From a virus: DNA of 64,000 nucleotides. Positions 1,021 to 62,216 of the stretch are shown one piece after another (position 1 is the stretch's first letter; each line of letters begins with the position of its first letter). The stretch spans positions 1 to 64,000 of the IMG/VR virus record IMGVR_UViG_3300049491_000955; one strand, given 5' to 3'. Below the pieces are notes generated by a model that was not told the DNA's origin, did not search any database, and saw only the letters and a program-made list of their open reading frames with translations. Made by a program: the position numbers and the translations under genes.

Positions 1021-1021
1021 G

Positions 1022-1702
1022 TTAAACTACATCAACTCCTGGAAAAGCTCCAAAAGGGAGTTGATTAAATGCTCCAAATCTGAGTTTGCAGCTACTTAAT
1101 CGCTTCCCGCACCTATCTAAGTTTAAATTTGTGGTTGGCGTATCGTTTTCATCTGCCACAGCCCCGCCAGTAAAACCGCACTCTGATCCTCTGTATTGCC
1201 ATACACAGTTATACTTTCTAATTACTCTTTGAGGTATCTTACTCTTAAATCCTAAATCTGAAAATTGTCTTAGTTCAAAACCAATCGTTAGCTCGTTTTC
1301 TTGCGATTTACGCCAAATAGTATAGGTGTCCGGAGTGAATTCCATCGCTGGATTTGCAGTTGGCTTGTCATCTAAGTACTTTGCTAATGTTCTTTTTCGC
1401 GTTATGGTTGCGCCAATTAAATCATCGTTTGATACTGTGAAAGATGTTATGAGTCCGAAGACATTAGATAGAGTTATTGATGGCTGAGGATTTTGACCTC
1501 TGGAGTTTATTTCAAAGCCTGATATTTCTACTGGTAAGGCTGGGTAAGCGGCTGCTTGAAAAACTACTTGATTCCCTGCTGTTTGCGCCCAATTGCAAAA
1601 TCTATAGACTAAGCTTACTCCCAAAGGATTAAGATCAAGCACAAATAAGCTTATTATTGCATCCGGAGATAAAGTCAGTAAGTCTGATTGTGGAATTGGC
1701 AT
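1022..1702 (-). CDS. L: Minor tail protein L (tail tip, Fe-S cysteine set)
   Basis: A 226-residue homologue of lambda gpL, which joins the tail tip complex below the tape measure. The C-terminal half carries four cysteines at about 166, 175, 198 and 205 in the contexts 'YRGSECG' and 'CGKRLSSC', followed by 'LRFG' and 'LPFGAFPG' as in gpL; in the lambda family these cysteines hold an iron-sulfur cluster. It starts one base after the stop of the M homologue and ends one base before J, so the three genes form one minus-strand operon in lambda order M-L-J. K and I, which lie between L and J in lambda, are absent here and sit about 36 kb away. Confidence 0.93.
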   Translation of the reverse strand: MPIPQSDLLTLSPDAIISLFVLDLNPLGVSLVYRFCNWAQTAGNQVVFQAAAYPALPVEISGFEINSRGQNPQPSITLSNVFGLITSFTVSNDDLIGATITRKRTLAKYLDDKPTANPAMEFTPDTYTIWRKSQENELTIGFELRQFSDLGFKSKIPQRVIRKYNCVWQYRGSECGFTGGAVADENDTPTTNLNLDRCGKRLSSCKLRFGAFNQLPFGAFPGVDVV

Positions 1703-5323: not shown

Positions 5324-8300
5324 ATGATTTTAGAACAATTATTGTTGAAACCTGTGGATGTCTATGGAGACGTTTCAAGGTTTCTCTCTACATTATATCC
5401 CCAAAACATAAATATTGACACATTTAATCACAAAATATTTTTAAGGAAAGAATTAAAGAGTTTTTCTTATTCTGCAACAGGGAAGACAGAGAAAAAGACC
5501 TCATTTCACAATCTCGCAGGTAACGGAAGAATTTCTTCTCTTGCTGAAACATTAGCGAAAAGCCGGAATGAAATTTGGCACGTATGCATCAATGGTTATG
5601 GACAGGGAACCACAAAGGATAAGATTCAATTTGGCACTGTTCTACAATTTGAATCTGACGATAGCCGTAGTCTCGATGACAAGTTAGACGATTGGAAAGT
5701 TTTGGGCTTGCCTGTCCCTACACTTCAAATGTGGACAGGAAATAAATCTATACATAGTTATTGGGTCTTGAAGACGCCATTACCTATACAAAAATTACAC
5801 GAACTTCAAATCCAGCTATTCAGACAAGGTAAAGAATTAGAAGCCGATGGATGGGCGCAAAGCGATACTTCTTGGGGAAGTACAGCATCAAAAACAATGC
5901 GTGTCCCCGGATTTGCTCACCCTAAGTCTGGGAATAAATCGCAAATTATTAATGTTTCTTCACAGTATTATGATGCTCAAGACATTTGGCAATCTATTTA
6001 TCTCTCTGGAAGACCTTTAAGAGGTCAATGGGATGAGAAAAGTCTTGCTTTTCTTCCTTGGATTTCTTTAGAGGATAGAATTGAGCGCGATCGCATCGAC
6101 AAAGAAAGAAAACGACTCGAAGCTCAGGTCAAATCCCAAAGAAACGATTTATACCCAATTCCTTTTAGTTTAATTTCTGATTCAAAGAAAGAAACTGAGA
6201 ACGAAATATCTATTCTTTCGTTAATCTCTCAAGCCAATTTAATTGTTTTTAAAAATGGCTCCGTACACGGAGAGAAGAATAAGGACAGTTCTAGACTTGC
6301 CAATGATTTAATCGGCTGTGAAGCTTGGGCATTAGAACGCAATTATAAGTTATCAGAGACTGCTTGTGATTTGTTTTTTGACTATTCTCGCCGATCTAAT
6401 ATTCCGGATAGTGAAACATCTAATAGATATAATTGTCTAAAAAACTCTAATCCTACTCCGGCGAACTTTTATCTCGAAGACAAAGTATTAAGACTTTTCT
6501 CTTCTTTTTCAAATAGAAAACCAATTCTTGTCAAAAAGATTGAAGTCAAATCTAAATCTGCTGACTTAGGATGGGATTTTATCGGACTCGTAAATCAGCT
6601 TTTTGCTATCAATAAGCATAAGGATGCTGGATTAAAAGAGTTATTGTTAAAGAAGTGGATAGAAGAAGAAACAAGTAAGAATACTCTCGGTGGTTGGTTT
6701 GCTTTTGGCGATTTGAAAGAAGTCAAAAAGCAAATGGTTTCTGGAGAAATAAATTTGGTTTCTTCTGAAAGCAAGTTACAGTCAGCCTCTGGCATCTACC
6801 CAACTGATGTCTTGTATTGTCAATCTCCAGATTTTAAAAATATTGCAAAACATTTTTCTTGGTATTTGGAACCTGTTGATGTCTCAAGAGAACTAATTAA
6901 ATATCTTTATTTGGCAGGCGCAGGAAATAAAGTTTATGTTGTTGACGAAAGTAAAATTAAGTGGGGTGCTGGACATTATTTTTACTATACAGATGAATCA
7001 ATAAAGCCAGATATATCTTTAAATCAAAGGTACTTACTTGATTCAGCTAATCCTTTCTTTATTCCAGAAGGCACTCGTATTCTTGGAATGAAATCTGAAA
7101 TGGGAACAGGCAAGACAACATGGCTTGCTGATTATATCAAGCAAACAAAGCTTAGACCTTTAGCTATCTATTCTCGCGTTACCCTTACTCAAGACGTTGC
7201 AGATAAATTTGGAATTGTTTTTTACAAAGAAACAACTGGAGATAGTCAAGCCTATAATCAATACCTTAAGAATGGAACGGCACTCTGTTGTAACTCCTTA
7301 AAACAAAACGGATATATCAACTTCAATCCTGACGATTGGGGAAACTTTAACAATAAAGATATTTTGCTTCTTGATGAAGTTGAAGCAACTTTAGAAACAA
7401 TTTGCAATTCTTCAACAATAAAAAAGAACAGAGGGGAGATTCAAAACAATTTCATAAAGCTAATCAAAAATATTCTTTCTCCAAATAGTACAAGTATTCT
7501 TGTTTTGAGCGACGCCAATCTAAAGCAGTCAACTATAGATTTAATTCAATCTTTGTCTGGCTGGAATCCACCGAAATGCATCATTGAAAATTCTTGGAAG
7601 TTTGAGGGCGGAGAGAGGAATGCATACATCTACGAAAACCCTGCTGATTTTTTAGGACAACTAACTATTCGTTCAAAAACAGAAGATCGACTTTACATTA
7701 CCTCTGACACTCGCGAATGCAAAAGCGAAAACAGCTACCTGACGACGGAAGCGATCGCCTTAGGACTTCAAGAACTAAAAGAAAAATCTCTAAGGATTGA
7801 TCAATGGACGCAACATACTATTGATGATCCTAGTTATGGACTTGGTTCAAACGCCAGAGTAATTATGAGCGAGCTTAAACACGAAAGAGCACACCTCATC
7901 ACTTCCCCTACATTAAGTGCTGGCGTTAGCTTTGATGATAAAAATGGTAGTGATTTCTCCTCTGTCTGGGGAGCCTTCAAAGGCGTTGTTCCCCTTGAAG
8001 GCTTACAACAACAATTGGAAAGAGAAAGGCGCAACGTAGACAGACACATCTATCTAACTGATGTTGGGAAGCCTAACGGCTGCAACCCCCTTACTTCTGA
8101 GCAGTCCTTGCTTGATGAAGAAACTCTTTCTCAACTCCTTAATGTCAAGGGTATCGCTAGTGGATTAAGTGTCTTAAATCCAGATTATGGTTTCATTCAA
8201 GCAGAGCAAATTTCTGAGAAAATGTTAGTCGAAGAAGATTCTTCCTTAGCTTTTTGGCGAAGAAAGAATAGAATTGGTTCTTCTTTCGCTTCTCGTAACT

Positions 8301-9274
8301 TAAAAATTAATTTGATTGCTCAACTTAAAAAACGTGGCTACAACGTGATAACAGTTAAGTCCTTATCTGATACAGAAGACAAGAAAAAAGGCAAAGAAGA
8401 GATTGATTTTTCTGTAGTTGCGGCTAATTCCAAACTTGAAATTGAAAAACTTCACAAGCTAATCACTTCTCAGCAAGAAACACACTTCAAAGAATTGGGT
8501 ATTCAATCTTTAAAACTATTTCAAGCTTGTGCAGCTAAGCAAAGAGAAACTAAATTAAATGCAATCATTAGATCAGATGCTGACATTGTGACAGAAGAAC
8601 TTTTAAGAAAAAGCGATCGCACTGCCGAAGAACATTACGCAGTTCTTAAATTTCAGTATCTACAATGGTCTAGAGGCATTGATTGCACTGTAGATAACTA
8701 TGAATGTTGGGAGAAGAAAAAGAAAGAAATTGAGACAGGCTTTATCAACTACTGTGAATTAACTCAAAATGAAAATGCTAAATTAGACGCTTTAAAGAAG
8801 GATAGCTTTCAACCTTCAACTGGAAATAGAAGTAAAAAAGATGTTGAATCTAACTACGCGAAATATAAGTTACTAGCTGATAACTTAGGACTCGCTGCTT
8901 TTGTTGTTTGGGCAGAGAATTCCGAAAACTATTCCATTCAAATGCCAGAAGTTAAAGATTTTAACAAAAAGTTACTTGAATATTGCAGCGAGATAAAAGC
9001 TTTAATGGGTATTCAAATTTCTTTTAATGACGAGAAGGCAATCTCTAATATTGGCAACATCTTAAGAGCTTGTGGAAGAACTCAAGAGAAAGTTAAACAA
9101 TCTAGGGCAGATGGAAACGGAAAAAGAATTAGAGCTTACTCTATCAAAACTCAGCCTAATCTTTATTTACAGTTCTGGGAGACTTGGGCGACAGACAAGA
9201 ATAAGGAATCTTTAATTAACGAAACAAAGACAGCCACTCTAATTCTTAAAAAGAATTTGGAAAATAAAAAGTAA
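5324..9274 (+). CDS. Plasmid-type replication protein: primase-like N-terminus plus helicase (CyRepA1-like)
   Basis: A 1316-residue protein. The N-terminal third has a primase-like pattern: 'WTGNKSIHSYWVL', a stretch rich in acidic residues around 'QFESDDSRS', and 'TMRVPGFAHPKSG', typical of replication primases of mobile elements. The middle holds a P-loop 'EMGTGKTTW' (Lys about 597) and Walker B 'LLLDEVE' (Asp about 684), then 'SPTLSAGVSFD' and a glutamine/arginine-rich 'QQLERERRN' motif like the final helicase motif. The C-terminal 400 residues are charged and helical. This arrangement recalls the cyanobacterial plasmid replication family CyRepA1 and other origin-binding helicases. It is monocistronic, ending in a clear terminator. 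Homology is by motif and size only; which residues are catalytic in the primase part is inference. Confidence 0.78.
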   Translation: MILEQLLLKPVDVYGDVSRFLSTLYPQNINIDTFNHKIFLRKELKSFSYSATGKTEKKTSFHNLAGNGRISSLAETLAKSRNEIWHVCINGYGQGTTKDKIQFGTVLQFESDDSRSLDDKLDDWKVLGLPVPTLQMWTGNKSIHSYWVLKTPLPIQKLHELQIQLFRQGKELEADGWAQSDTSWGSTASKTMRVPGFAHPKSGNKSQIINVSSQYYDAQDIWQSIYLSGRPLRGQWDEKSLAFLPWISLEDRIERDRIDKERKRLEAQVKSQRNDLYPIPFSLISDSKKETENEISILSLISQANLIVFKNGSVHGEKNKDSSRLANDLIGCEAWALERNYKLSETACDLFFDYSRRSNIPDSETSNRYNCLKNSNPTPANFYLEDKVLRLFSSFSNRKPILVKKIEVKSKSADLGWDFIGLVNQLFAINKHKDAGLKELLLKKWIEEETSKNTLGGWFAFGDLKEVKKQMVSGEINLVSSESKLQSASGIYPTDVLYCQSPDFKNIAKHFSWYLEPVDVSRELIKYLYLAGAGNKVYVVDESKIKWGAGHYFYYTDESIKPDISLNQRYLLDSANPFFIPEGTRILGMKSEMGTGKTTWLADYIKQTKLRPLAIYSRVTLTQDVADKFGIVFYKETTGDSQAYNQYLKNGTALCCNSLKQNGYINFNPDDWGNFNNKDILLLDEVEATLETICNSSTIKKNRGEIQNNFIKLIKNILSPNSTSILVLSDANLKQSTIDLIQSLSGWNPPKCIIENSWKFEGGERNAYIYENPADFLGQLTIRSKTEDRLYITSDTRECKSENSYLTTEAIALGLQELKEKSLRIDQWTQHTIDDPSYGLGSNARVIMSELKHERAHLITSPTLSAGVSFDDKNGSDFSSVWGAFKGVVPLEGLQQQLERERRNVDRHIYLTDVGKPNGCNPLTSEQSLLDEETLSQLLNVKGIASGLSVLNPDYGFIQAEQISEKMLVEEDSSLAFWRRKNRIGSSFASRNLKINLIAQLKKRGYNVITVKSLSDTEDKKKGKEEIDFSVVAANSKLEIEKLHKLITSQQETHFKELGIQSLKLFQACAAKQRETKLNAIIRSDADIVTEELLRKSDRTAEEHYAVLKFQYLQWSRGIDCTVDNYECWEKKKKEIETGFINYCELTQNENAKLDALKKDSFQPSTGNRSKKDVESNYAKYKLLADNLGLAAFVVWAENSENYSIQMPEVKDFNKKLLEYCSEIKALMGIQISFNDEKAISNIGNILRACGRTQEKVKQSRADGNGKRIRAYSIKTQPNLYLQFWETWATDKNKESLINETKTATLILKKNLENKK

Positions 9275-46300: not shown

Positions 46301-48627
46301 CTATTGATTTCCTGAAATCTGGTACTCTTGGAGCCGGTGGCGGAGGCGGACAAATTCAAACTTCTTCTCCTAGTCCTTATACTGGCAGCACCAAAGCTTC
46401 TTTCTATGGCGCAGGAGATGGATTTGATGGGAAGCCTACAGCTAGCGGGGAAACATTTGATCAAAATAAAATGACTGCTGCTATCAACGAAACCCTTCGT
46501 AAGCAGCTTGGACTAAATTTTGGCACTCAAGTTCAAATCACAAACCCAGCTACCGGACAATCCGTCGTTGTCCGAGTGAACGATCATGGCCCATATGAAA
46601 AAAAAGGAGGAAAGTTTGTTCCCCACAGTACTCGCGGCTTTGATTTAAGCACGTCTGCCGCGCGGGCGATCGGTTTAGACAAGGTTGGCGTAGGCAATGT
46701 AAACTTCCGTGTACTTGGGCAAGGCGGCGCAACCGGTTCTCCTAACTTGAATAACTCTAGAGCTTATTCTTCTGCCAGTGGTTTGGCACAAGGGCAATCG
46801 AATCCTGGTGGTGTAATGATTGGCGCAGGAGGGAAAGTTGCTTTGGATAACTTGAATCAACAGAATGCCCAAGTTATTGCCAAATTTGAAGGAAGTCGGA
46901 AGCTTGCCCAACTTGATGCCGAAAGAAACGCTCGCCGTGCTCAGTCTCAATTAGAAACTAATCGAATTGAAAATCTTCGTAGTACAAAAGCTACACAAAG
47001 AAATTTGGAAGATTCCAGCTTGGGACTGGGCTATCAAACTTATGGAGTCGAAGCGACTCGACAAGCGATCGCAGTTGAACGCAAGTATGAAGATCAGGTA
47101 CAGCAACTTCAAGAGCAACGCGTCAAACAGCAAGAAGCAATAGATACTGCTGAAAGTACTTTGGCTGTGCTGAGATCTAGTACAGACGCAGAGATACCTT
47201 ACAGAAAAGAATACATTCAGAAATTAGAAAAACTTCTTCCTTCTGTTAAAGCAGTTTTGGGACAGATTAACAAACAAATTCTTGATAGCGCAGAAGCAGA
47301 AAGCAAAGAGATTGGAGATATAGAAAAGAAAAGCTATGAAGCTGAAATGATTCGCTTGGGCGAAGCAAAGGACAACTACAGTCAAGGTAGATCTGAAATA
47401 CTAAAACGTAATGCCGCCAATCGACGCACTTTAGCAGAAAGAAGTAGATTAAGTATTCCTGATTTGTTTGCTACTTTGGATGCAGAGAAAGAAGCAGCAT
47501 CCCTTGATGCTAGTGTCGCTTACAACTCAACCATTAGGGCTATTGATGAGCAAATAAAAAAAGAAATCAACAAAGATATTCTTAAGTTATTAAACAGCAG
47601 AAAAGCTCAAGCCTTTGCTTCTTTATTAAAAGCTCCAAGGGAAGCTCAGCAACGCTTTGATCGAGAACTCCTTGATAGACAACTTACAGAAAGAGGAGAG
47701 CACGAAGGACGATTAGATAAAATTTCTGAGTCTAGAAAATCTCTTTTATCGGCTGGCTCTCAATACTTAGGTCGATTCAATCTTGGCACAATTGCAAATC
47801 CTCTGAACAAGAAAATTGCTCAGATGGGTGCTGAGGATGAATATAGAAGAGGCTCACTAGAAATAGAGCAATTAGCAGCCTCTGGTAAATATTCTAATGA
47901 GCAATTATCCGAGCTACGCAAGAATCTAGAAAGCTTGAATACTATCAAGCTGGAAAATATTCGGGCTGAATTTGATGTATGGACTGGGGTAATGGAATCG
48001 ACTAAAGGGCAATTTGAAGGCTTCTTTGGCAGTATGATTCGAGGAACTGCAAGCATTGGAGAAGCTTTTTCAAATCTTATTGGCGGTATCGCTGATAATC
48101 TTGCCAATCTTGCAGCCCAATACCTAACCAATGAAATCTTTGCTTCTATATTTGGGATTTCTAATAAGCCAGCTATTCAAGAATCCGGAGGAGGTGGATT
48201 ACTTGGCGGAGGAATTGGTGGCATACTTGGCGGATTACTCGGCTTTGCTAATGGCGGTGAAATTGGCAATTATGCTAATGGTGGGATTATTGGGGCGATG
48301 CAGCGTGAACGGGCAATGACAGGGCGACGCGCTCACTTAATTGTAGCTTCCGAAGGAGAGCGTATTCTAAATCACAAAGAAGCGCAGATTTGGAATAAAA
48401 TTACCGGGAGGCTTAATTTTGCTTCTGGTGGCATGATCGGAGCAGACGCGGGCACTCTTTCTGCTAGCGCTGGCGTTGGTGGGGGACTTACAATCAATGT
48501 TCCAATAAATGTTGGCAGTGAATCCAAAGGTGCTTTTGATAAGGGCAAAGAAGCCGCCCTTAAACAAGCAATTATCGCTACAGTCGTAAACGAAAGGCGT
48601 CCAGGTGGCAGTTTATACCAAGTTTAA
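40342..48627 (+). CDS. Tail tape measure protein with peptidase M23 and RlpA-like domains
   Basis: 2761 residues, setting tail length and entering the cell envelope during infection. Domains in order: helical start; a hydrolase-like stretch at about 335-530 with 'GESGG' (Ser 439) and a later 'GHPYENY' (His 518); a tape-measure core at about 1085-1270 ('EELRQQLSEAIPGAAQVAARAYG'); two hydrophobic segments at about 1290-1365; long coiled coil; a LytM/M23 endopeptidase at about 1865-1990 with HxxxD (1889, 1893) and 'HLH' (1973-1975); an RlpA-like double-psi barrel at about 2018-2130 with 'NDHGPY'; more coiled coil; and a Gly-rich C-terminus with 'LIVASEGERILNHKEA'. The two peptidoglycan domains are clear; the lipase-like part is inference from one elbow motif. 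Confidence 0.93.
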   Translation: MDLGTLEINFIGSFQQLDRDIARAKTIATQAAKEIESSFKNTNFKITVNDSALSSLNKHLDFKKIHFQQVQQYFNQNPLTVKVDDTSLTKLNKELDIITKQRDVVVNVKANIRQEAELVGTEVGQQVKKSLSNSFKGLGKEVKDAVSLNSGITLGIGQLFGSMLGSQMISGLKRNLGVDVKAAIGSIFDTAAKPLKVFVVDNQDLKASINKAGVLLEERFESAGYKVGEAIIASLESKASTIEGKFNAFTKELIDPNKFQSQLSTLKKDIVDISSDVKGSLFNKQASQEFFGGLGEKISSRREKGLQTRAVPLVRERALQILEENKARNSANAVTSETEQIYIATGGYAGARGLSGKRLAGDLKKQISANDLAIWVKNDDTDLPKEAMSKAKEKAIALMTSMAKPHLRGYSKDAIEMAAQAMAALEKNPNVKVKFLGESGGGFAAEEAEKIVSLMGYGQKADYLGVGTPQFIGGLDSRNRKIISPDETLGAETHKMYAKLGLANVSSSQQNILGVFGHPYENYKEAGIAELQNFIQGMPKRFTSEDISGAKGAAQAFKAHDLKKLDSKQLEKFSEQAFANLQMIRRQILVATTETRQELEEIAKDFEDVYVASAPESREFTQARETIAKAQNIYKHLVPQAGLAAAKVGQELAKELESHQKEFAKVGGQYSGTYGRKYQSINSEMSDLIAKLQATELGVKKAEVKIPLTIPNVPEKAFVEQSAKQVSQAVAETAKQVIENTKKEIVKAQQTSPNTDKIKTQIAAIQEAIKKSQGYLAGTPELSSAYIDTILKVVPEIQKQLNEAIQSLPTEERMSSELGVQLANLKSQIPSMQKRVAEIVKNLNKDITRVASGEPKDSIKSLGNVFTEQLRTAKQFGQGSTQGDALAKDVLAATEKARQSISDLLVSFGQDVPEVIKKAAKIARQQITTSEKGAKTFLGEAKTAGLDTGAGFNEGLKQSIANVQKSAQAMAQIAIDVTEETLEIQSPSKVFERIGRFVGQGFKQGLDTIGQINFKQLFQDLIDSPADSIDKLLGNFSKLSGAAKAIAVAFAGFTVFQLFGSQLIDFGRSTSQVASNLENLERRIKFVSNSSADANKNLEFFRGNAKRLGSDISTSLTQGGAFAAVTRGSSLEGDPTRRIVGAVQQASTVLGATPEQQERGLLALQQMAGKTIVSQEELRQQLSEAIPGAAQVAARAYGLTTQEMNQLIEKGQILAEDFLPRLAQQLSIETSAGLPGALKTSVYAMGRFKNATLEAQESIGKLALPLQTFSLNVLSGGIEKLTGMLPLLINGFQFFILLITKPFWFPIIQGLFSIQANTLLTGISFKTLGASIATFSATALTALAPLLLQFLAFEAVILIFSALKEQYQDFASSIRDNTKQINQSIDELNKSLNKVGTGAAKPLAGNTEELRQRLAYEYNDKIQKNPFSVFSTTRVPVQIKELEDYLSASKELLATSQRLKKESESSTSTKAISDLKLLDAEYQRVQNRRRGLEVNNPGDAKGREALIAQEQDLLRKREEANRTPTTYQTAYATQAKTIKDLIELMEEQKKKGVVTAESEIQLQKLKKGLVEVTEKQEYFAKSTRSSQSSLLEFERSFARLDASLEGTKSRLESLSNISKVTLQSQEASGAITPGQNAFTDSLKQQEQISKQVAANISVIRQKYAELNNQNALQVLNDLGIDKNSTSAELKGRAEENQANPQVKSVLEKLAQVRDLEAETYRLNAQQAEQQNNLVKQIYDSNKAVLEYYQSIQRQTQELSIAAQEAAQTIKLTNVKSKLKAAISGTQDNFVNQFVDSIVQITESLGQIANEEIQAKRQILQNENAYKDIIKQGVDLNRNLPGLAPGATVGSYTGGYNQSLVFPIGGRNNSTISSGYGDRVHPISGKHKFHDGVDYPAPIGTSVVSPMAGVVVGVKYEARGGGKYVVIESLDSKGQKVEHTFMHLDQQMVKEGQQVAAGQQVGTVGNTGGSTGPHLHYRTRINGRSVNPIDFLKSGTLGAGGGGGQIQTSSPSPYTGSTKASFYGAGDGFDGKPTASGETFDQNKMTAAINETLRKQLGLNFGTQVQITNPATGQSVVVRVNDHGPYEKKGGKFVPHSTRGFDLSTSAARAIGLDKVGVGNVNFRVLGQGGATGSPNLNNSRAYSSASGLAQGQSNPGGVMIGAGGKVALDNLNQQNAQVIAKFEGSRKLAQLDAERNARRAQSQLETNRIENLRSTKATQRNLEDSSLGLGYQTYGVEATRQAIAVERKYEDQVQQLQEQRVKQQEAIDTAESTLAVLRSSTDAEIPYRKEYIQKLEKLLPSVKAVLGQINKQILDSAEAESKEIGDIEKKSYEAEMIRLGEAKDNYSQGRSEILKRNAANRRTLAERSRLSIPDLFATLDAEKEAASLDASVAYNSTIRAIDEQIKKEINKDILKLLNSRKAQAFASLLKAPREAQQRFDRELLDRQLTERGEHEGRLDKISESRKSLLSAGSQYLGRFNLGTIANPLNKKIAQMGAEDEYRRGSLEIEQLAASGKYSNEQLSELRKNLESLNTIKLENIRAEFDVWTGVMESTKGQFEGFFGSMIRGTASIGEAFSNLIGGIADNLANLAAQYLTNEIFASIFGISNKPAIQESGGGGLLGGGIGGILGGLLGFANGGEIGNYANGGIIGAMQRERAMTGRRAHLIVASEGERILNHKEAQIWNKITGRLNFASGGMIGADAGTLSASAGVGGGLTINVPINVGSESKGAFDKGKEAALKQAIIATVVNERRPGGSLYQV

Positions 48628-48839
48628 TCTTCTTCTTCTTCTTCTTCTTCTTTGCAGTCTTTAAGAATTATTTCAAATTCTTCAATAGCAATAATTGCCA
48701 TTTTTACGCAAGCAACTTCTTGAGGATGCGTAGCAGTTTGCATTTTGTAATTATCAGAAACGTGATAGCCTTGCACAGCATAAAATTTCTTCGCAAGTCT
48801 TTCAATCAACAAATCTCTGTAAAAAACTCCTAATTCCAT
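48624..48839 (-). CDS. Small acidic-tailed protein, paralogue A
   Basis: 72 residues from the ATG 'MELGVF'. Core 'ERLAKKFYAVQGY' and 'VKMAIIAIEEFEIILKDC' matches the gene at 49141; ends in a Glu run encoded by CTT/TTC repeats. Overlaps the tape measure stop by four bases. An ATG at 48881 would add 14 very basic residues. Last gene of the minus-strand membrane operon. Function unknown. Confidence 0.6.
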   Translation of the reverse strand: MELGVFYRDLLIERLAKKFYAVQGYHVSDNYKMQTATHPQEVACVKMAIIAIEEFEIILKDCKEEEEEEED

Positions 48840-48906
48840 CGCCCCCCCTCTTTTTCTTTTCTTTTTACTACTATAACTCATAATATCTCTTTTAGTAATA
48901 CCTTAG

Positions 48907-48980
48907 TCAATATTCCTTTGTGTAGCGAAGTAAGTCAACCTCTACAGGGTTTTCGTCATTTTTGCCCTTCATTTTTAAGT
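48907..48980 (-). pseudogene. Duplicated remnant of the ATPase gene's 3' end
   Basis: On the minus strand this reads 'MKGKNDENPVEVDLLRYTKEY' then a stop, nearly the last 22 residues of the ATPase at 49432. The DNA following it (CTAAGG...AGATATTAT) also matches the sequence after the true ATPase gene. It shows that a block of ATPase tail plus paralogue gene was duplicated. Confidence 0.8.
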
Positions 48981-49151
48981 TTTTTGCGTTAGTTGATCAA
49001 TCAAATTTTTAGCTGCTTCAAAAGCTTCTTTTTCTGAGTCAAATCCCGTAACATATTTATTTACTGCTTTTCCCGTGATATAGGAAGCGTACTTGTTATT
49101 TTTTTCTGTGATAACAATGCTGAAATTTTTGTGTGTTGTTTTAGCAAACAT
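48975..49151 (-). CDS. Small hypothetical protein
   Basis: 58 residues from 'MFAKTT', with 'KNFSIVITEKNNKYASYITG' and 'SEKEAFEAAKNLIDQL', a compact strand-helix protein. Good ribosome site GAGGAAAT; overlaps the end of the 49141 gene. It partly covers the ATPase remnant in position. No family recognised. Confidence 0.55.
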   Translation of the reverse strand: MFAKTTHKNFSIVITEKNNKYASYITGKAVNKYVTGFDSEKEAFEAAKNLIDQLTQKT

Positions 49152-49371
49152 TTTTAATTTCCTCTTTTTCCTCTTCTTTTTCTGTACAATTTTCAAGAAT
49201 TACTTCAATTTTGTTAACGGCAATAATTGCCATTGCTACGCATCTGCGCCTTTCTCGACTTTTAGCACTTTGCATTCTGCAAGTAGGGGGAGCATAATAA
49301 CCTTGCACTTTATAAAAGTCTTTAGCTAGCTCTTCAATTAATGCATCTCTTTCTGCGGATTCTATTTTCAC
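49141..49371 (-). CDS. Small protein, paralogue B
   Basis: 76 residues: 'EELAKDFYKVQGYY...CVAMAIIAVNKIEVILENC', similar throughout to paralogue A at 48624 but with two extra cysteines. Helical, acidic end. Presumably the original of the duplicated pair because it directly follows the intact ATPase gene. Confidence 0.6.
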   Translation of the reverse strand: MKIESAERDALIEELAKDFYKVQGYYAPPTCRMQSAKSRERRRCVAMAIIAVNKIEVILENCTEKEEEKEEIKNVC

Positions 49372-49431
49372 AATTTTTCTTTTTTCTTTTTTCTACTATA
49401 ACCCATAATATCTCTTTTAGCAACACTTTAG

Positions 49432-50880
49432 TCAATATTCCTTTGTGGGTGGCTTATAGTGAAGCAGATCAACCTCTACAGGGTTTTCGTCGTTTTTGCC
49501 TTTCATTTTTAAAGTTCCTTTTCCGCTACCCACTGTTTCGCCCATCTTGTCAGTAGTTGAAATGCAATCGATGCGTGGGCAAGAATCGATTAACTTGGAG
49601 AAGCCAGCTAGCTTGGAAGAAATACTAGTTTGATTCATGGAATGAGCAGTGAGAACTCCTGTGTATCCCCACTTCCTAATGTTGGTAGTCATTTGTTTTA
49701 GGAAAGTAGCCCAGACTTTAGGATCAATATTGTGAACTTCGTACGTATTGGCCTCACAAAGTACGATCGCAACTCTACCTTTTAGTCCTGTTTTGTCTTT
49801 CAAGTAATCCAAGTAGTCATCTTCATCGATTTCTTTTTGGCGAGCTTCGTCTTGGCGATCGCGTATGCTCTTTGGAAAATTGCTCATAAATTCATTGATA
49901 GAATCGATGTCCGACAAAACTGTTACCCCTGCCATTGTTTCCGTAGCAGCCGCACCTTTTCTAATTGTTTCAGGATTGATAACTACAACATGGTGTCCCA
50001 TCTCCCGCAACAAGTCGATGGCCAATCTTTCTAATGTAGATTTACCGCTACCTTGTTCCCCAGAAAGAACTTTAAAGGGCATTTTGAGTAATTGGTATAT
50101 CCATTGATGCTTTTGAGCTAATTGAATTTTCCCCGAACTAGACTTGCTGTCTTTAATCACTTTCTCTTCTGCTTTCTCTAAATCCAGTCTTTTTTTGTCA
50201 GCTTTGCTTTTATCCCTAAAGTTTTCAGCAATTTTCTTATCAGCATCTGAATGGGCAACAGCACGATTTTTCAAATAATCTTCAAGTTGTAATCGTCCTT
50301 TAGCTTGTTCGTTTTCTGGATCAGTTAATCCAAGGTGTATGCGTTCTTCCGTATCTTGTGCTGTTAGTCCATCTTTTAATCTATCTGTGTACAACGCCCT
50401 CGAATGAGCTTTGGTCTCCCGATAATGCTTGTTATCTTCCCAAGTTCCATAGCCATAAGTTTTTTCTTGCTCATTAAGTTGGTAGTCTGTTTCATTTAAT
50501 CTCTGCAATCGAAAATACATTGTTAATGCGGCTCCCCATAGTCCAGCGACCGCAAAACTTCCGCCAAGTAACTGATTAGGATTGTCTGTTGGCAATGCCA
50601 TGACTTCTTGAATTGAATTGCCTTTGTAAGGAATTTTACTACCATACATGCCGTACTTCTTCCATTCTTCGGTGAGCACATAGCGAGGTTTTACGCAATA
50701 CTCTTTGTTGATAACTATCTGCCCTTTTTTACCACTGGCAGACTTAGGACAGAATTTAATTTGAGTTAGATCATAAGCTTGAGTTGTTTGAGTAGCTACA
50801 AAACCTGTCACTGAAACAACTCCGCAAGCTAGTATCACTCCAAATTCAAACAAATTAGTTTTAGTTTTCTTCTTTGTCAT
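49432..50880 (-). CDS. Membrane-anchored P-loop ATPase
   Basis: 482 residues. Two N-terminal hydrophobic segments (about 10-30 and 105-122) with a Cys-containing loop between them suggest a periplasmic loop; a charged linker (about 130-250) follows; then an ATPase with Walker A 'LSGEQGSGKST' (about 271-281), 'HHVVVINPE', a Walker B-like 'VAIVLCEANTYE' where Glu replaces the usual Asp, and 'GVLTAHSMNQTS', a sensor-like motif reminiscent of FtsK/VirD4-type coupling ATPases. Membrane anchoring plus this ATPase type points to DNA or protein transfer, or to segregation. It is the only enzyme in a long operon of small membrane proteins. I do not know a named family. Confidence 0.7.
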   Translation of the reverse strand: MTKKKTKTNLFEFGVILACGVVSVTGFVATQTTQAYDLTQIKFCPKSASGKKGQIVINKEYCVKPRYVLTEEWKKYGMYGSKIPYKGNSIQEVMALPTDNPNQLLGGSFAVAGLWGAALTMYFRLQRLNETDYQLNEQEKTYGYGTWEDNKHYRETKAHSRALYTDRLKDGLTAQDTEERIHLGLTDPENEQAKGRLQLEDYLKNRAVAHSDADKKIAENFRDKSKADKKRLDLEKAEEKVIKDSKSSSGKIQLAQKHQWIYQLLKMPFKVLSGEQGSGKSTLERLAIDLLREMGHHVVVINPETIRKGAAATETMAGVTVLSDIDSINEFMSNFPKSIRDRQDEARQKEIDEDDYLDYLKDKTGLKGRVAIVLCEANTYEVHNIDPKVWATFLKQMTTNIRKWGYTGVLTAHSMNQTSISSKLAGFSKLIDSCPRIDCISTTDKMGETVGSGKGTLKMKGKNDENPVEVDLLHYKPPTKEY

Positions 50881-51187
50881 CTTTCAAATCCCAAAAATTA
50901 ATTAATACTTTTTCTGCAACAGTTTCTCCTACTTGATTCCAAAGAACATTTTGTTCTTGGATTTCTGGAAAGGCAGACATTGAATTTATAGTTTCAAAAC
51001 AATTGAAATCAATCCAAATTAATTCGCCAAGTTCAGCTAATTCTTGTTTTTCAAGAAAATGAGGATTTACTATATACTCTTGAATTCTTTCTTGAATTTG
51101 TTCTCTGCCACTTTGGTTGTACTTTAACTGATTCCAAAGATTTGAAAACCATAAAACAACTTTAGTTGTGTCGCTGTATTGATTCAT
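50861..51187 (-). CDS. Small soluble protein of the membrane operon
   Basis: 108 residues, helical, rich in Trp/Phe/Asn ('VVLWFSNLWNQLKYNQSGREQIQERIQEYI'). Overlaps both neighbours (four bases upstream, twenty bases into the ATPase gene), so it is translated as part of one unit. No motif. Confidence 0.6.
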   Translation of the reverse strand: MNQYSDTTKVVLWFSNLWNQLKYNQSGREQIQERIQEYIVNPHFLEKQELAELGELIWIDFNCFETINSMSAFPEIQEQNVLWNQVGETVAEKVLINFWDLKDDKEEN

Positions 51188-51420
51188 TTTTCTGCAACTT
51201 TAAACAAAAGAACAACCATAAAAACAGTCATCGAAAGACAAATGCCAACGCTTAGCCAAGGATAAAGAAAGGGATATTGACCATAAATAACTGCAAGATT
51301 AGAACTGAGTCTATATATAAGATCGTCAACAATTTGGCTAAAAAATACGTAATCTAATTTAAAAAAAATAATAGCTGTTGCTGTTGTCAAGATTATTTTT
51401 AAAAAATTATTGTTTCTCAC
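51184..51420 (-). CDS. Small two-helix membrane protein
   Basis: 78 residues, two transmembrane segments ('IILTTATAIIFFKLDYVFF' and 'LSVGICLSMTVFMVVLLFKV') separated by a short loop. GTG start overlapping the previous stop (GTGA). Confidence 0.6.
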   Translation of the reverse strand: MRNNNFLKIILTTATAIIFFKLDYVFFSQIVDDLIYRLSSNLAVIYGQYPFLYPWLSVGICLSMTVFMVVLLFKVAEK

Positions 51421-51995
51421 TTTCTAAAAACTCCTAATAGTAAAACAAGTGCGATCGCACCAAGTACAGCAAATCCCCAAGCACCAGCCCACGCATCAGA
51501 GCGAGGTTCTTGCTTTTCAAAGATTTGAATATCTTCAGCAATTTCATGAATAGTAGTGTTTGTGATATCTTGAAAATATCGGTAATCTTGTCCAGCTAAA
51601 TAAGTAGTGATTGCCGAGCTACCCAAACCAAACACAACTTTGACAGTACTTTGAGCATTATCAACTTCTAGTCCTTCTCCAGCCTTGTAGTTTACTCTAA
51701 AATTGGTCAATCCTGAAAGCGGAACTACGGCACAGCAAGTAAAACAAAGGCTAATTGCTAACCAATAGTTTACTCCTCCGCCCAAAAGCAATAAACCTTT
51801 AGCAAGGAAAAATCCGGTAGCATTCATCGACCACCCCACAAGATATCCAGTAAGCTTCCCTGTTGTTCCGATGACTTGTTTTCTGTGTAGCTTTCTCTCT
51901 TGTAAGTGCTCTGCTAAATCTTTTGGAAGAAGAGTGTCTGGAGCATATTCCATTATTTCTTCTTGCTCTGTCTGTTGCTCGTTTAATGTATACAT
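51417..51995 (-). CDS. Polytopic membrane protein
   Basis: 192 residues from 'MYTLNEQQ'. Hydrophilic N-terminus (about 50), then four hydrophobic segments ('GWSMNATGFFLAKGLLLLGGG', 'LAISLCFTCCAVVPLSGL', 'FGLGSSAITTYLAG', 'WGFAVLGAIALVLLLGVF'). The second pair surrounds a soluble part about 60 residues long. Central membrane component of the operon; no family recognised. Confidence 0.65.
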   Translation of the reverse strand: MYTLNEQQTEQEEIMEYAPDTLLPKDLAEHLQERKLHRKQVIGTTGKLTGYLVGWSMNATGFFLAKGLLLLGGGVNYWLAISLCFTCCAVVPLSGLTNFRVNYKAGEGLEVDNAQSTVKVVFGLGSSAITTYLAGQDYRYFQDITNTTIHEIAEDIQIFEKQEPRSDAWAGAWGFAVLGAIALVLLLGVFRK

Positions 51996-52062
51996 GTAAT
52001 AATAATCCCAGTGTAAACATATTTTGTTTGGCAGCTTATGCATAAAGCTGCCAATTTTTTAA

Positions 52063-52737
52063 CTAAAAACCAAAAATAAAATCTTTGATTTTTCCAACTA
52101 CATTATTACTTGCGTAATTTTTTTTGGGCTTAAAAGCCTCTACAGCTTGATCGCCTTCTGCCAGATAATAATTACCCATCTCTTTGTTGTGCTGAAGATC
52201 TACTGTTTGTTGCTTAATTGGAATTCTCAATTCTTCTTTAAGCAATTGATAGTCTTCATCAATAGTAGTCATATGAGCATCAATCCAAGCTTTAAGTTCA
52301 AGTCTCTTTGCTGTTCTCTCATGTCTAAGCTCTTCCTTCCTTTGAGAATTCTCAAAGTCGGTTTGCATTTCATCCAGAGCATTGACGAGACTTGTATCTT
52401 CTAACGTGGCAGATTGAATTGCTCTTTCAACTGCTTTGCCGCTAACACCTGCTTTCTTGTAGATTTCGGAGAGAACAAGATTTAAATCTTCTTGTCCTTG
52501 GATAGCTGCAATCATTTGGTCTTTTACTTTGGGAGCAAATTCACTAATTCTTGCTCCGTCTATACCCATCTGCCCAATTATTTTTAGAGCTTTTTGATCA
52601 CCTGTAAGAGCACTAATGATTAGTCCTTGGGACACTCCTGTATTCAGTCTTAGTTGGGCTTGTAAATTGCGGGTTTTTCCTAAAGTTACCCTGTTTTTTA
52701 GCTTCCCAATATGTCCGGCACTTTTCTTTCCAAGCAT
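52063..52737 (-). CDS. Helical protein of the membrane operon
   Basis: 224 residues, nearly all helix. 'NTGVSQGLIISALTGDQKALKIIGQMGIDG' and 'KVKDQMIAAIQGQEDLNLVLSEIYKKAG' look like packed short helices; 'ENSQRKEELRHERTAKRLELKAWI' is a coiled coil. No membrane segment. Good GAGG ribosome site. The first 125 bases overlap the preceding gene in another frame. Confidence 0.65.
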   Translation of the reverse strand: MLGKKSAGHIGKLKNRVTLGKTRNLQAQLRLNTGVSQGLIISALTGDQKALKIIGQMGIDGARISEFAPKVKDQMIAAIQGQEDLNLVLSEIYKKAGVSGKAVERAIQSATLEDTSLVNALDEMQTDFENSQRKEELRHERTAKRLELKAWIDAHMTTIDEDYQLLKEELRIPIKQQTVDLQHNKEMGNYYLAEGDQAVEAFKPKKNYASNNVVGKIKDFIFGF

Positions 52738-52903
52738 CTATATATACCTCGCTACATTCGTAATCCATTCGTCGCATATATGCATCAAGTTGAGTTTGAT
52801 GCTTTTCTTCTCTTTTAAAATTCTCGATACTCACTAGTGGCAAATATATAAAGTAATGAGTACCGAGAATCAAGCTTGTCAATCCTGTAAGCAAAACAGC
52901 CAC
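52613..52903 (-). CDS. Single-pass membrane protein overlapping the next gene
   Basis: 96 residues: N-terminal transmembrane segment ('VLLTGLTSLILGTHYFIYL') then a charged tail with two cysteines. It overlaps the 52063 gene by 125 bp, unusually much. GTG start inside a hairpin loop. The overlap lowers confidence, but the TM segment and operon position support it. Confidence 0.5.
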   Translation of the reverse strand: MAVLLTGLTSLILGTHYFIYLPLVSIENFKREEKHQTQLDAYMRRMDYECSEVYIDAWKEKCRTYWEAKKQGNFRKNPQFTSPTKTEYRSVPRTNH

Positions 52904-52918
52904 CGGTCTTACAGGATT
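52881..52918. promoter_or_regulatory. Hairpin enclosing the GTG start of the 52613 gene
   Basis: AATCCTGTAAG / CTTACAGGATT, 11-bp stem with a 16-base loop that contains the start codon on the minus strand. On the plus strand the same hairpin is followed by TTTTT and would act as a terminator of antisense transcripts. Confidence 0.7.
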
Positions 52919-52928
52919 TTTTCTTCTG

Positions 52929-53624
52929 CTACTGCTTAAATCTTGCGGAGATTTCGGCGAAAGCTGTGGTAAGTTCTTCGCCGCAGCTTTTGTAATCGTT
53001 GGTCGATTCCTCCATTGCTGAAGAAAAATTATTCAGCAATCCAACTACGTTGCGATCGCTTTCGTCAATTGTTTGGTACAAAGATTGAAACTGTGATTGA
53101 ATGTATTTTTCTTCTTCTGCTAAATAAGTTTTGATTAAGCCAAGCACATGAGTAATCATCTCTCCTCTGCTTGTGCAATTAGCAGGAATGCTTTTTGCAA
53201 TTGTTTGAATCTCTTGCTTGTGTAGTTTCAATCCACCTTTTTGCAAAGTCGAACCTACAATTTCTAGCTTTTCAGATTCTGCTATTAATTGAATTTCTCC
53301 TTTAAGCTCAACTGGCTCAACTTGTTCGGGTTGGATTTCTTCTGGCTGAATCTCAAAACTTAAGTTTTCTTCAGGCTTGATTAAACTTTGGGAGACGGTG
53401 CTTAGTCCACTAGAAGGAGAAATATTTTCTTTTGATTCAAACTTAAGCTTTTCTACTATTTCTTGCATTTGTTCTTCTGTTGGCTTTTCTTCTGCACTGT
53501 TAATCACTGTGTAATATGCCTCTTTGATTTTTTGATAGCTTTTAATTATTTCGTAATTGCGCTTCAGTCTAGATTGAATTCTTTTAAAGTAAATTTTTTC
53601 GTTGTTGTGAAGCTTTTCAGACAT
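52929..53624 (-). CDS. Coiled-coil protein of the membrane operon
   Basis: 231 residues: basic helical N-terminus, a Glu/Pro-rich linker with repeated 'QPEEIQPEQVEPVE', then a long C-terminal helix region ('YIQSQFQSLYQTIDESDRNVVGLLNNFSSAMEES') like the coiled-coil arms of segregation or chemoreceptor-type proteins. Strong ribosome site AGAGG. Possibly a scaffolding partner of the ATPase complex. Confidence 0.6.
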   Translation of the reverse strand: MSEKLHNNEKIYFKRIQSRLKRNYEIIKSYQKIKEAYYTVINSAEEKPTEEQMQEIVEKLKFESKENISPSSGLSTVSQSLIKPEENLSFEIQPEEIQPEQVEPVELKGEIQLIAESEKLEIVGSTLQKGGLKLHKQEIQTIAKSIPANCTSRGEMITHVLGLIKTYLAEEEKYIQSQFQSLYQTIDESDRNVVGLLNNFSSAMEESTNDYKSCGEELTTAFAEISARFKQ

Positions 53625-53625
53625 T

Positions 53626-54048
53626 TTAGTTACCTCTTGTTTTTTCTTTGTACATTAAAGCTTTGATTGTGATTTCAAACAGATCTTTTCCTAAATAAAA
53701 GTTACTTGCTTTAAATCCACCAATCTGTTTGAACCACCTAGATAATGTTGATTGCGACGGTTGTAAGTCAGATAAAGACAAATAATTTAAAAATGCTTTA
53801 CCAGAGTAGTATTGCTCAAAAGATAAATTTGCTCGGTGCTTTAATATCTTTTCTTTTGCGTTTGCTAATCGTTTTATACGTCCATTAGAAATCTTGTTTA
53901 GTCTTAGATAAAGAATTAAATTTTTTTCGGTTAGTTCTAGCTCTAAACTTTCCAAAAAAGTTTTTACTCTCCACCATTCCGTATCACTTGATCTTGATTC
54001 AATTAATTTTTCATACCTTTCTCTCTCCTTAGAGATTGTTATCGTCAT
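53626..54048 (-). CDS. Putative DNA-binding protein heading the operon
   Basis: 140 residues from the ATG after AAGGAG. 'LYLRLNKISNGRIKRLANAKEKI' and 'LSLSDLQPSQSTLSRWFKQIGGFK' look like two helix-turn-helix-like segments. It is the first gene after a region with four GTATTAC repeats, so it may bind them and control the operon. No family recognised. Confidence 0.55.
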   Translation of the reverse strand: MTITISKERERYEKLIESRSSDTEWWRVKTFLESLELELTEKNLILYLRLNKISNGRIKRLANAKEKILKHRANLSFEQYYSGKAFLNYLSLSDLQPSQSTLSRWFKQIGGFKASNFYLGKDLFEITIKALMYKEKTRGN

Positions 54049-54100
54049 TTTTCTTCTCCTTTTCTTTCCTTTTCTCCTAATACAAACTTCTTTTTTTGCC

Positions 54101-54255
54101 GTATTACGTATTACGCATGTAATGCCCTGCATTTATGCTTTTTTTAGTATGCATGTACTGTTTTTGAGTATATATGCTTACTAAAAACCCTTAAAAAAGA
54201 CTGCATGTATTACGCACTGTCCATATTTAGGCTTAATATATGAGCGGTGTAATAC
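54101..54255. repeat. Four GTATTAC(G) repeats upstream of the 53626 gene
   Basis: GTATTACG at 54101, 54108 and 54207 and an inverted GTAATAC at 54249; two of these are followed by CATGTAAT- or CACTG-like extensions. Operator-like array in an otherwise noncoding stretch. Confidence 0.6.
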
Positions 54256-54294
54256 AGTTTTTCCTGACTGCACTGCCTGAAACTCTTTAGGAGT

Positions 54295-54335
54295 AAGCTT
54301 ATTCACAATTCACAAGTGATGAATAAGCTTGTTTT
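54295..54335 (+). terminator. Plus-strand hairpin with T-run
   Basis: AAGCTTATTCA / TGAATAAGCTT, 11-bp stem, then GTTTTT on the plus strand only. In the minus-strand operon it lies between two genes as a stem without terminator tail and may be an RNA-processing or stabilising structure. Confidence 0.55.
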
Positions 54336-54348
54336 TACCCCTAAAAAT

Positions 54349-54477
54349 TTACCTTTTTTCTAAACCCTTCTTTTGACCGACAGAATCGCTGTAACGAGGT
54401 GGCAGTAACCATCGTGCATCTGCACGGGCAGGTTTTTGACGTTCTGACATCGATTCAAGCTGAAACAGGTCAATCAT
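54349..54477 (-). CDS. 42-residue protein
   Basis: Short frame with an excellent ribosome site (AAAGGA seven bases before ATG) between the 54510 gene and the repeats. Sequence 'MIDLFQLESMSERQKPARAD...PPRYSDSVGQ' is polar and basic at the end. Order and ribosome site support it; no family. Confidence 0.5.
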   Translation of the reverse strand: MIDLFQLESMSERQKPARADARWLLPPRYSDSVGQKKGLEKR

Positions 54478-54509
54478 CAATCTTTTCCTTTATTTACTGT
54501 TAGCTGAAA

Positions 54510-54791
54510 TTAGTTGCCTAGAAGAACAGAATAAAGACTTTCCACTACTTTGCAGTTAACATGATTGCTTGGCGAGGTCTTGCAGTAATAATTTGCATTC
54601 ACCAAGTAACTGCCGAAAGTTAATAGTCCTACTCCAGTAAGCATGATTCCTAGTAGATGAGGAACAAACCCAAATCGTTTTTTGAAATTATCTCGTTCTT
54701 CTTCTTCTGGATCATAATTATTTCCCGCTTCTTGCCAAGTGATAAATTTGCCGTCGTAGTAGAATCCACCTTTCTCTTTTTTATTGCTCAT
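54510..54791 (-). CDS. Single-pass membrane protein with two cysteines outside
   Basis: 93 residues: charged N-terminus ('EEERDNFKKRFGF'), one hydrophobic segment ('LLGIMLTGVGLLTFGSYL'), then a short outer part with two cysteines ('YYCKTSPSNHVNCK') that could form a disulfide. Starts inside the end of the previous gene. Second gene of the divergent minus-strand unit. Confidence 0.6.
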   Translation of the reverse strand: MSNKKEKGGFYYDGKFITWQEAGNNYDPEEEERDNFKKRFGFVPHLLGIMLTGVGLLTFGSYLVNANYYCKTSPSNHVNCKVVESLYSVLLGN

Positions 54792-55020
54792 GGCTTATTC
54801 TCGCTGCTAATCTTGCTTGTTTCTCTTCTTCTTTTTTCTCGTGCATCTGCTGGAGTTGCATTATCCCTCCTGTTGTCAACAATCCCAATCCGACGTAACC
54901 CGCTATTTTTCCTCCATACTTTTGAGAACCAAAATAACCCAATCCTACACACCCAATCAAAAACAAAAAGAATAATGCACTGTTTTTTGCTGTTCCTAAA
55001 CTTACTTTTTTCTTTGCCAT
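54781..55020 (-). CDS. Small two-helix membrane protein
   Basis: 79 residues from 'MAKKK': two hydrophobic segments ('SALFFLFLIGCVGLGYFG' and 'GYVGLGLLTTGGIM') and a basic/acidic coiled tail. Overlaps the next gene by 11 bases. First gene of this membrane group; divergent from the 55193 regulator. Confidence 0.6.
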   Translation of the reverse strand: MAKKKVSLGTAKNSALFFLFLIGCVGLGYFGSQKYGGKIAGYVGLGLLTTGGIMQLQQMHEKKEEEKQARLAARISHEQ

Positions 55021-55192
55021 TTTATTCACTGCGTGTATTACCTGCTCTCTTTCTTTAATATAAATGCACGGGGGTGCAACTGTCAAGTAAGTGCACCTCT
55101 GTTTTTATTATTTCTTAATGATTAAGGGTGAAAGACTGATTCTGCTGTACATTAAGATTGAGGTGCAAGAACAAACAGAAGGATGCAAAAGG

Positions 55193-61692: not shown

Positions 61693-61721
61693 TTGCGAGT
61701 AGTCTTACAATGGAGTATAGT
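61693..61721 (+). promoter_or_regulatory. Promoter TTGCGA-17-TATAGT with GAGTAGTCTTA element
   Basis: Good spacing; the spacer holds GTAGTCTTA as in other possible promoters here. It overlaps the first codons of a longer reading of the next gene, which argues for the downstream start. Confidence 0.65.
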
Positions 61722-61745
61722 AGAGATGAAGTAAAAAAGAAAAAA

Positions 61746-62216
61746 ATGTTAGAACGAAAGATAGATACAAGACCGAGAGATTCTTTAGGTCGTTTAGTGC
61801 CAACAAATAACGCTAAAAAAGCAATTAATTTTAAGTTAAAACCAGATGTATTTGATTGGCTAAAAACAAAGCTTAGCTATACAACTTATGTAGAGAGCTT
61901 GGTTATTCAAGCAAAAACAGAAGAAGAAATGAATTCTTCTGTTAAAATTAATTATTTTGCTGAAAAACTAGCGAAAGTTTTTGAAGAATTTAAGGTAGTT
62001 GAAGAAAGCGAAGAATGGACTGATAATCTGCAAAAACTATTAGAAAAATTAAGAGATTACCGCGTAAAAGTTGCGATTAATAATTTCGATTCTTCTCAAG
62101 TGTTTTGCCCAGATTGTGGTAGCGACAAACTGACGAAAGATGGTACAACTCTTGTAAAAGATGAGCAGCATCAAAGATACAAATGTAAAGAGTGCCAAAC
62201 AAAATTTACTTTTTAA
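61746..62216 (+). CDS. Zinc-ribbon protein with basic N-terminus
   Basis: 156 residues. N-terminal 'KKAINFKLKPDVFDWLKTKLSYTTYVESLVIQ' has a ribbon-helix-helix-like shape; the C-terminus is a zinc ribbon 'CPDCGSDKLTKDG...RYKCKECQTKFTF' of the transposase/InsA type. Together they suggest a DNA-binding regulator rather than an enzyme. Ends at a strong terminator. Start moved to the ATG at 61746 because the promoter lies across the first ATG. Confidence 0.65.
   Translation: MLERKIDTRPRDSLGRLVPTNNAKKAINFKLKPDVFDWLKTKLSYTTYVESLVIQAKTEEEMNSSVKINYFAEKLAKVFEEFKVVEESEEWTDNLQKLLEKLRDYRVKVAINNFDSSQVFCPDCGSDKLTKDGTTLVKDEQHQRYKCKECQTKFTF

Follow-up and report, generated by a model that had tools for sequence, protein, structure and literature searches.

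What does an operon of small membrane proteins built around a single ATPase do in a tailed phage? The question is raised by the IMG/VR virus record IMGVR_UViG_3300049491_000955 (82,081 bases), positions 1 to 64,000 of which make up the stretch of 64,000 nucleotides (nt) analysed here, hereafter the window. Thirteen minus-strand open reading frames (ORFs) run there from 55086 down to 48624, and an original prediction made from the sequence alone had read them as membrane machinery that serves DNA transfer, partition at the membrane or exclusion of other phages and is carried by a phage-plasmid. Here we report that six of these genes, A-B-m96-C-D-E (49432-54132), form a conserved collinear unit that also occurs on cyanobacterial plasmids, that E contains a motor of the FtsK/TcpA type, and that this motor domain is swapped between blocks. 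The explanation that we favour, tentatively, is a membrane-bound DNA-translocating machine for plasmid transfer or spread that works without a recognised type IV secretion system (T4SS).

A six-gene block shared with cyanobacterial plasmids

As a check, the original prediction had proposed a search for this gene order among cyanobacterial plasmids that lack phage genes, and there it was found. With E as the tblastn query 30 Nostocales plasmids and zero phages were retrieved, and with C 43 plasmids, again with zero phages. An alignment scan yielded 60 loci from 84,980 species genomes and none in IMG/VR. All 62 fetched loci holding A to E were collinear and on one strand, with D and E overlapping in 47 of them; E-values within the fetched locus sets are relative. 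With C-related genes at 70 loci and the order kept in 62 out of 62, the block is more than a chance arrangement.

On the plasmids E is the last of the conserved genes, a large replication-type protein is often encoded nearby and ParA elsewhere on the plasmid. One block plasmid, that of NIES-4105, is just 18.4 kb long; besides the block it has a ParA-type gene and, in the replication position, a large protein. Gene C is carried by 19 of 386 sampled cyanobacterial genomes, and a single Nostoc genome gave six matches. Named hosts are Nostocales and Plectonema, to which the plasmid search added Allocoleopsis; all are filamentous. The block is thus a shared backbone module whose home appears to be the small plasmids of filamentous cyanobacteria, chiefly of Nostocales. 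No paper describing it was found among the open-licence papers searched.

This distribution bears on the notion that the phage uses the block for virion assembly or lysis, as its position next to the tape measure gene might suggest (the end of that gene, at 48,627, overlaps h85, the last small ORF). Pfam and PHROGs returned no virion or lysis family match, in keeping with the predicted lack of such a signature, and the block also resides on plasmids without annotated virion genes, the 18.4-kb NIES-4105 plasmid among them. We consider such a function highly improbable.

Among phages the block was seen only here. No relative was present in 50,697 phage records, IMG/VR pattern scans, which rely on short peptide patterns, recovered it from no other contig, and single-protein pattern scans with E across genome and viral contigs gave nothing. 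IMG/VR relatives identified by their terminase have little else in common with the record and none of A to E. Together with tandem duplication debris at the end of the block, this would fit a passenger that was acquired from a plasmid and does nothing for the phage. However, the six core frames of the phage copy are open and its catalytic motifs intact at ∼55% identity to the nearest plasmids, and a second, distinct cyanophage has a cousin operon (below), which makes a mere passenger improbable.

On the Allocoleopsis plasmid pMIC7113.08 (20.8 kb; L167 7703-17158) the block is accompanied by a separate minus-strand operon encoding a tail-fibre-like protein (weak phrog_1446 match), a malectin domain protein and large proteins. 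The idea of a cryptic non-tailed virus, which arose from this cassette, was rejected: the NIES-4105 plasmid holds the block with no virion gene named, and the 664-amino-acid (aa) protein of the cassette was found on one plasmid only.

Phage-plasmid nature of the record

The record contains a virion gene set (a terminase pair, a Mu-type portal, a head protein (capsid), tail proteins and the tape measure) and a 1316-aa protein that scores 206.7 bits against the CyRepA1 replication protein family (NCBIfam NF042913; curated cut-off 200) and also matches CyRepA1 plasmids by tblastn. On the strength of tailed-phage virion genes combined with a CyRepA1 replication protein, the record classes as a phage-plasmid, as had been predicted. 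CyRepA1 plasmids have the replication protein in common with the phage, but the phage alone has the tailed-phage virion gene set. ParA, ParB, a MobA-type relaxase and a tyrosine integrase were looked for across the phage record and none was found. Partition genes and integrases are frequent in phage-plasmids, yet not obligatory, so that the classification was kept. A J-like tail-tip gene on the minus strand is apparently split over the record ends (window 1-1030 and L002 15155-18016), the open frame at the record start being continued by a frame at the record end, with a frame shift at the join. From this split, the phage genome is probably circular and was opened within the J-like gene, in which case virion genes would flank the block on both sides.

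Gene E encodes a probable membrane-anchored FtsK-type motor

E consists of an N-terminal membrane-anchor half (residues 1-235) and a C-terminal FtsK-type ATPase domain (residues 245-482). Across 38 relatives G274, G277 and K280 of the Walker A motif are invariant, as are E376 and R402-K403, and H413 in the motif 'TAHS' is nearly so. The Walker A and Ala-His sensor claimed for this protein were thereby borne out. Of its two claimed transmembrane (TM) segments, TM1 is clear by hydropathy, but the second (around residue 105) lies under the hydropathy cut-off in the window and over it in the plasmid relatives L006 and L167.

An AlphaFold2 model of E has a predicted local distance difference test score (pLDDT) of ∼90 for most of residues 255-475. 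When it was compared with the PDB by Foldseek, the best matches were TcpA (E 5e-8), RecA, the FtsK motor (7e-7) and the type VII ATPase EccC. Model, matches and the invariant G274, K280 and E376 describe a RecA-type fold with a Walker A and an acidic Walker B motif. In profile-profile comparisons the E domain matched cyanobacterial FtsK at 82-86% over 133 columns, with all rows as well as with rows other than those of the CEAN motor type described below; CEAN rows alone reached only 21%, and the controls (terminase, protein C) gave ∼0.2%. The match to VirD4 was confined to 19-35 columns around Walker A and did not extend across the motor. Given the FtsK profile match and the limited VirD4 match, sequence and model together make E best read as a membrane-anchored FtsK-type motor, though it falls under all curated family cut-offs. 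Window E matched none of the FtsK or coupling-protein families of Pfam and NCBIfam, and a DUF87 match was seen only sub-threshold, for the relative in L075. Zot was absent from the Pfam matches of the window proteins up to E=1, and a PDB sequence search gave only generic P-loop matches for E and none for C. Of the three families suggested for comparison, FtsK therefore held by fold and profile (together with TcpA), VirD4 only around Walker A, and Zot not at all. Compared with FtsK/SpoIIIE, E is smaller and has a histidine at the position of the FtsK sensor residue, a glutamine.

TcpA, the best solved fold match, is the FtsK-like coupling protein of the conjugative plasmid pCW3 and works with a T4SS-like system (PMC5365140). 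Both proteins have an N-terminal TM region and a C-terminal motor, but they share 14-15% identity with no family-level sequence match, and the block encodes no such partner system: Pfam, PHROGs and NCBIfam scans revealed no T4SS genes in the window operon. Because T4SS genes and VirD4-wide similarity were both looked for and not found, we do not file E or the block, from its sequence, as a T4SS coupling protein.

The motor domain is replaced as a cassette

The N-terminal half of window E is ∼56% identical to one plasmid group, whereas the C-terminal halves of that pair are ∼21% identical. Conversely, its C-terminal half is ∼60% identical to another group, with N-terminal halves there at ∼26%. 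The two motor types are homologous to each other (profile comparison, 98%). The type found in the window, CEAN, forms one clade (SH-aLRT 100), but it needs at least six changes of backbone on the N-half tree, seven on the C tree and six on the D tree, and CEAN as one clade is rejected there (approximately unbiased test, p 0.0006 and 2e-37). These quick trees carry long-branch warnings; the identity contrast is independent of them. In L014 (12021-12248) and L049 (9430-9606) the CEAN-type gene is followed, at most 10 bases downstream, by a 3′ remnant from the other motor type. The E motor domain has thus been replaced as a cassette that left debris of displaced motors behind, and the CEAN type has changed backbone at least six times. 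Such swaps, which leave remnants of the displaced motor, offer a natural experiment on what is specified by the domain. The window remnant is a short tail of its own motor type, duplicated along with the neighbouring small gene. Another orphan 3′ end of the ATPase gene lies at L022 16100-16378.

Cassette-like motor replacement with displaced remnants downstream resembles what is seen at arms-race loci. The block could accordingly be imagined as a membrane nucleoside triphosphatase system that bars the entry of other phages or plasmids and has its variable effector or specificity part in the swapped ATPase domain; its many small membrane proteins would suit this, and phage-plasmids often carry superinfection exclusion. 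We nevertheless regard exclusion or defence as unlikely, though, like segregation, a serious rival. PADLOC models gave only generic P-loop similarity (RecD-like) and no multi-gene match, several copies coexist in a single genome (a Nostoc with six matches), the motor has a DNA-translocase fold, and the block is a plasmid backbone module, not variable cargo.

A cousin operon and plasmid mobility

Plasmid relatives of E match phrog_29669, a family of 581 positions without assigned function (4.7e-39 for L167), whereas window E does not. A search with phrog_29669 led to a cousin operon in which a related TM-ATPase of ∼590 aa is encoded together with several TM proteins and two peptidoglycan hydrolases, an M23 peptidase and a GH108 muramidase. 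Two copies are located on one 142-kb contig (L183 3219-12072 and L182 4352-12468), and the L183 copy adjoins NikA/MobC and a MobA/VirD2 relaxase (6e-32). A cousin-type operon also stands beside phage terminase and portal genes in L075 (metagenome-assembled genome SBLK; a 13.5-kb part of a 37-kb contig). Relative to the cousin operon its M23 protein is 34% and its ATPase 29% identical; it also holds a relative of h85, and it matches the window block in the ATPase domain only. By its gene content, L075 is a second, distinct cyanophage carrying a cousin-type operon. The hydrolases and the relaxase beside the cousin motor point, by association, to DNA movement across the envelope.

Mobility typing classed 25 of 43 gene-C plasmids as mobilizable, compared with 24 of 109 CyRepA plasmids (Fisher p 3.7e-5), and none of the 43 as conjugative, compared with 15 of the 109 (Fisher p 0.006); the CyRepA set differs in size and overlaps the gene-C set slightly, which renders these statistics supportive, not decisive.

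The relaxase enrichment and the relative beside peptidoglycan hydrolases and a relaxase would be left unexplained if the block served maintenance, that is, if it anchored or segregated the plasmid and phage-plasmid at the membrane or septum and E cleared the closing septum like FtsK. Moreover, ParA or ParA/ParB is already present on most block plasmids examined, and partition alone was down-weighted because it would be redundant there. For its part, maintenance could draw on the FtsK-type motor, on the block being a backbone module that often lies near a replication gene, and on the finding that only 7 of the 29 cyanobacterial genomes sampled have FtsK-family genes above the Pfam cut-off; the phage record, having neither ParA nor ParB, could need another stability system. 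Of the rivals this is the one to which we would give most weight, doubtful as it is.

A possible route for DNA transfer

The plasmid gene order, the phage-plasmid setting and the FtsK/TcpA-like ATPase agree with the predicted membrane machine. Among the three functions that had been offered for it, we infer transfer, which the TcpA-like architecture, the relaxase enrichment and the hydrolases and relaxase beside the cousin favour over partition and exclusion. In the DNA-translocating machine that we tentatively prefer, E would form a hexameric ring at the membrane, while D, m96 and, in the phage, m78 would make the membrane platform. A would bind plasmid DNA, either in regulating the operon or in bringing the DNA to the membrane, and B and C would connect DNA or cargo to E. 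Driven by ATP hydrolysis, plasmid DNA would then cross the envelope or the septum, whether with the relaxase that the plasmids often carry or as duplex DNA, in the manner of Streptomyces TraB. A swap of the motor would alter partner or DNA specificity, letting several such plasmids share one cell. In the phage, the phage-plasmid would spread from cell to cell, or act at the membrane, without virions.

By description, the block resembles Streptomyces TraB and Spd: there, too, small plasmids encode an FtsK-like motor along with small membrane and other proteins but no T4SS, and the host is multicellular and filamentous; Spd proteins are likewise without characterised relatives (PMC4170104). Also likened by description is TdtA of Thermus ICEth1, a hexameric FtsK/HerA-like ATPase that sits at the membrane, is encoded on a mobile element and acts without a T4SS (PMC5365140). 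The operon partners of this transjugation pusher, NurA and a restriction enzyme, differ from those of the block.

Several findings weigh against a transfer machine. Neither VirB4 nor a channel nor a peptidoglycan hydrolase is encoded in the A-E block, no recognised relaxase is present on 18 of the 43 block plasmids, and the MobA-type relaxase sought in the phage record was not found; relaxase rates of cyanobacterial plasmids also hinge on plasmid size and MOB-suite. The cousin operon and the window block have only the ATPase in common. TraB recognises 8-bp clt repeats, but k-mer and repeat scans found neither clt-like nor iteron-like repeats, and E has no C-terminal DNA-recognition domain. As no clt-like repeats were found, we do not file the block as a TraB system.

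Conjugation genes are predicted to be absent from most plasmids of cyanobacteria, and an unidentified conjugation mechanism has been proposed for these organisms (Smillie et al., as cited in PMC8600333). The block, common on otherwise non-conjugative Nostocales plasmids, equipped with a DNA-pump-type motor and now found in a phage too, supplies specific genes that can be knocked out. A bolder version of the transfer machine, which we hold to be unlikely, is a T4SS-independent transfer peculiar to filamentous cyanobacteria that uses a swappable FtsK-type motor to move plasmids between or along filaments; the tailed phage would have adopted it, letting its plasmid form pass from cell to cell without lysis.

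Anatomy of the operon and neighbouring features

The coordinates of the operon and related features are listed in Table 1. The predicted overlaps of starts and stops are seen at x1/x2 (11 nt), m96/C (125 nt), D/m78 (4 nt), m78/s108 (4 nt) and s108/E (20 nt). Ten operon proteins searched in Pfam and PHROGs gave no convincing family, and NCBIfam and PADLOC scans returned generic P-loop or chance matches only. The clear small membrane proteins number four (x1, x2, m96 and m78), fewer than the five or more that had been counted, and the one polytopic protein is D. As for the two supposed coiled-coil proteins, B and C are both helical, B of the helical/coiled-coil kind and C a long-helix protein, the structure model of which is of low confidence (pLDDT 62). 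The DNA-binding protein expected in first place would be A, the third ORF, a putative assignment from motif resemblance (conserved motifs 'SDxTWYRVK', 'STxxWF' and 'Y..kdL'). Before A, a 17-nt imperfect inverted repeat (54141-54157/54171-54187) and the repeated GTATTACGCA at 54108 and 54207 form a candidate operator.

No relatives of x1, x2 or s108 were present among the collected loci. m78 resembles the C-terminal half of D (a partial paralogue) and is an extra gene relative to the plasmid blocks; with s108 it is inserted between D and E, and both appear specific to this phage. The h76/h85 pair was made by a tandem duplication of ∼532 bp, which copied the tail of the ATPase gene too.

Table 1. 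Positions in the window of the operon genes, of parts of gene E and of related features
Feature	Position	Strand	Description
x1	54781..55086	-	101 aa, TM protein, not conserved
x2	54510..54791	-	93 aa, TM protein, not conserved
Stretch before A (from its probable start)	54049..54509	.	Probable regulatory region, from its position
Gene A	53626..54132	-	Listed as 168 aa, but start probably at 54048; putative helix-turn-helix-type DNA-binding protein
Gene B	52929..53624	-	231 aa, helical/coiled-coil, poorly conserved
m96	52613..52903	-	96 aa, a single TM at the N-terminus; relatives at 30 loci
Gene C	52063..52737	-	224 aa, long-helix protein with C-terminal helix
Gene D	51417..52043	-	208 aa, polytopic membrane protein, 3-4 TM
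m78	51184..51420	-	78 aa, 2 TM
s108	50861..51187	-	108 aa
Gene E	49432..50880	-	482 aa, ATPase
Walker A of E	50038..50061	-	GEQGSGKS, residues 274-281
Swapped ATPase module of E	49435..50148	-	CEAN type, ∼60% identical to L018/L047
h76	49141..49371	-	Small protein, h85 paralogue (52% identical); outside conserved block
Remnant of E 3′ end	48922..48981	-	Residues 456-475; inside the tandem duplication
h85	48624..48881	-	Small protein; relative ∼2 kb from the ATPase gene in L075
Tape measure gene	40342-48627		Product 2761 aa
Replication protein gene	5324..9274	+	1316 aa, CyRepA1 family; NCBIfam NF042913, tblastn

Three further observations concern the rest of the record. Stretches of M23 peptidase and of lipoprotein-like sequence are present in the tape measure protein near residues 2014-2120. 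The small protein encoded at window 61710-62216 ends in a TnpB/Cas12f-like zinc ribbon, which scores below curated cut-offs, and is possibly a transposon remnant. Finally, four proteins of ∼250 aa (L002 811-1563, 1721-2470, 9473-10222 and 13431-14180) differ in their N-termini and are related in their C-terminal region around 'NVALFGKKAKQLCEE'; read by eye, they are apparent paralogues with exchanged N-terminal parts.

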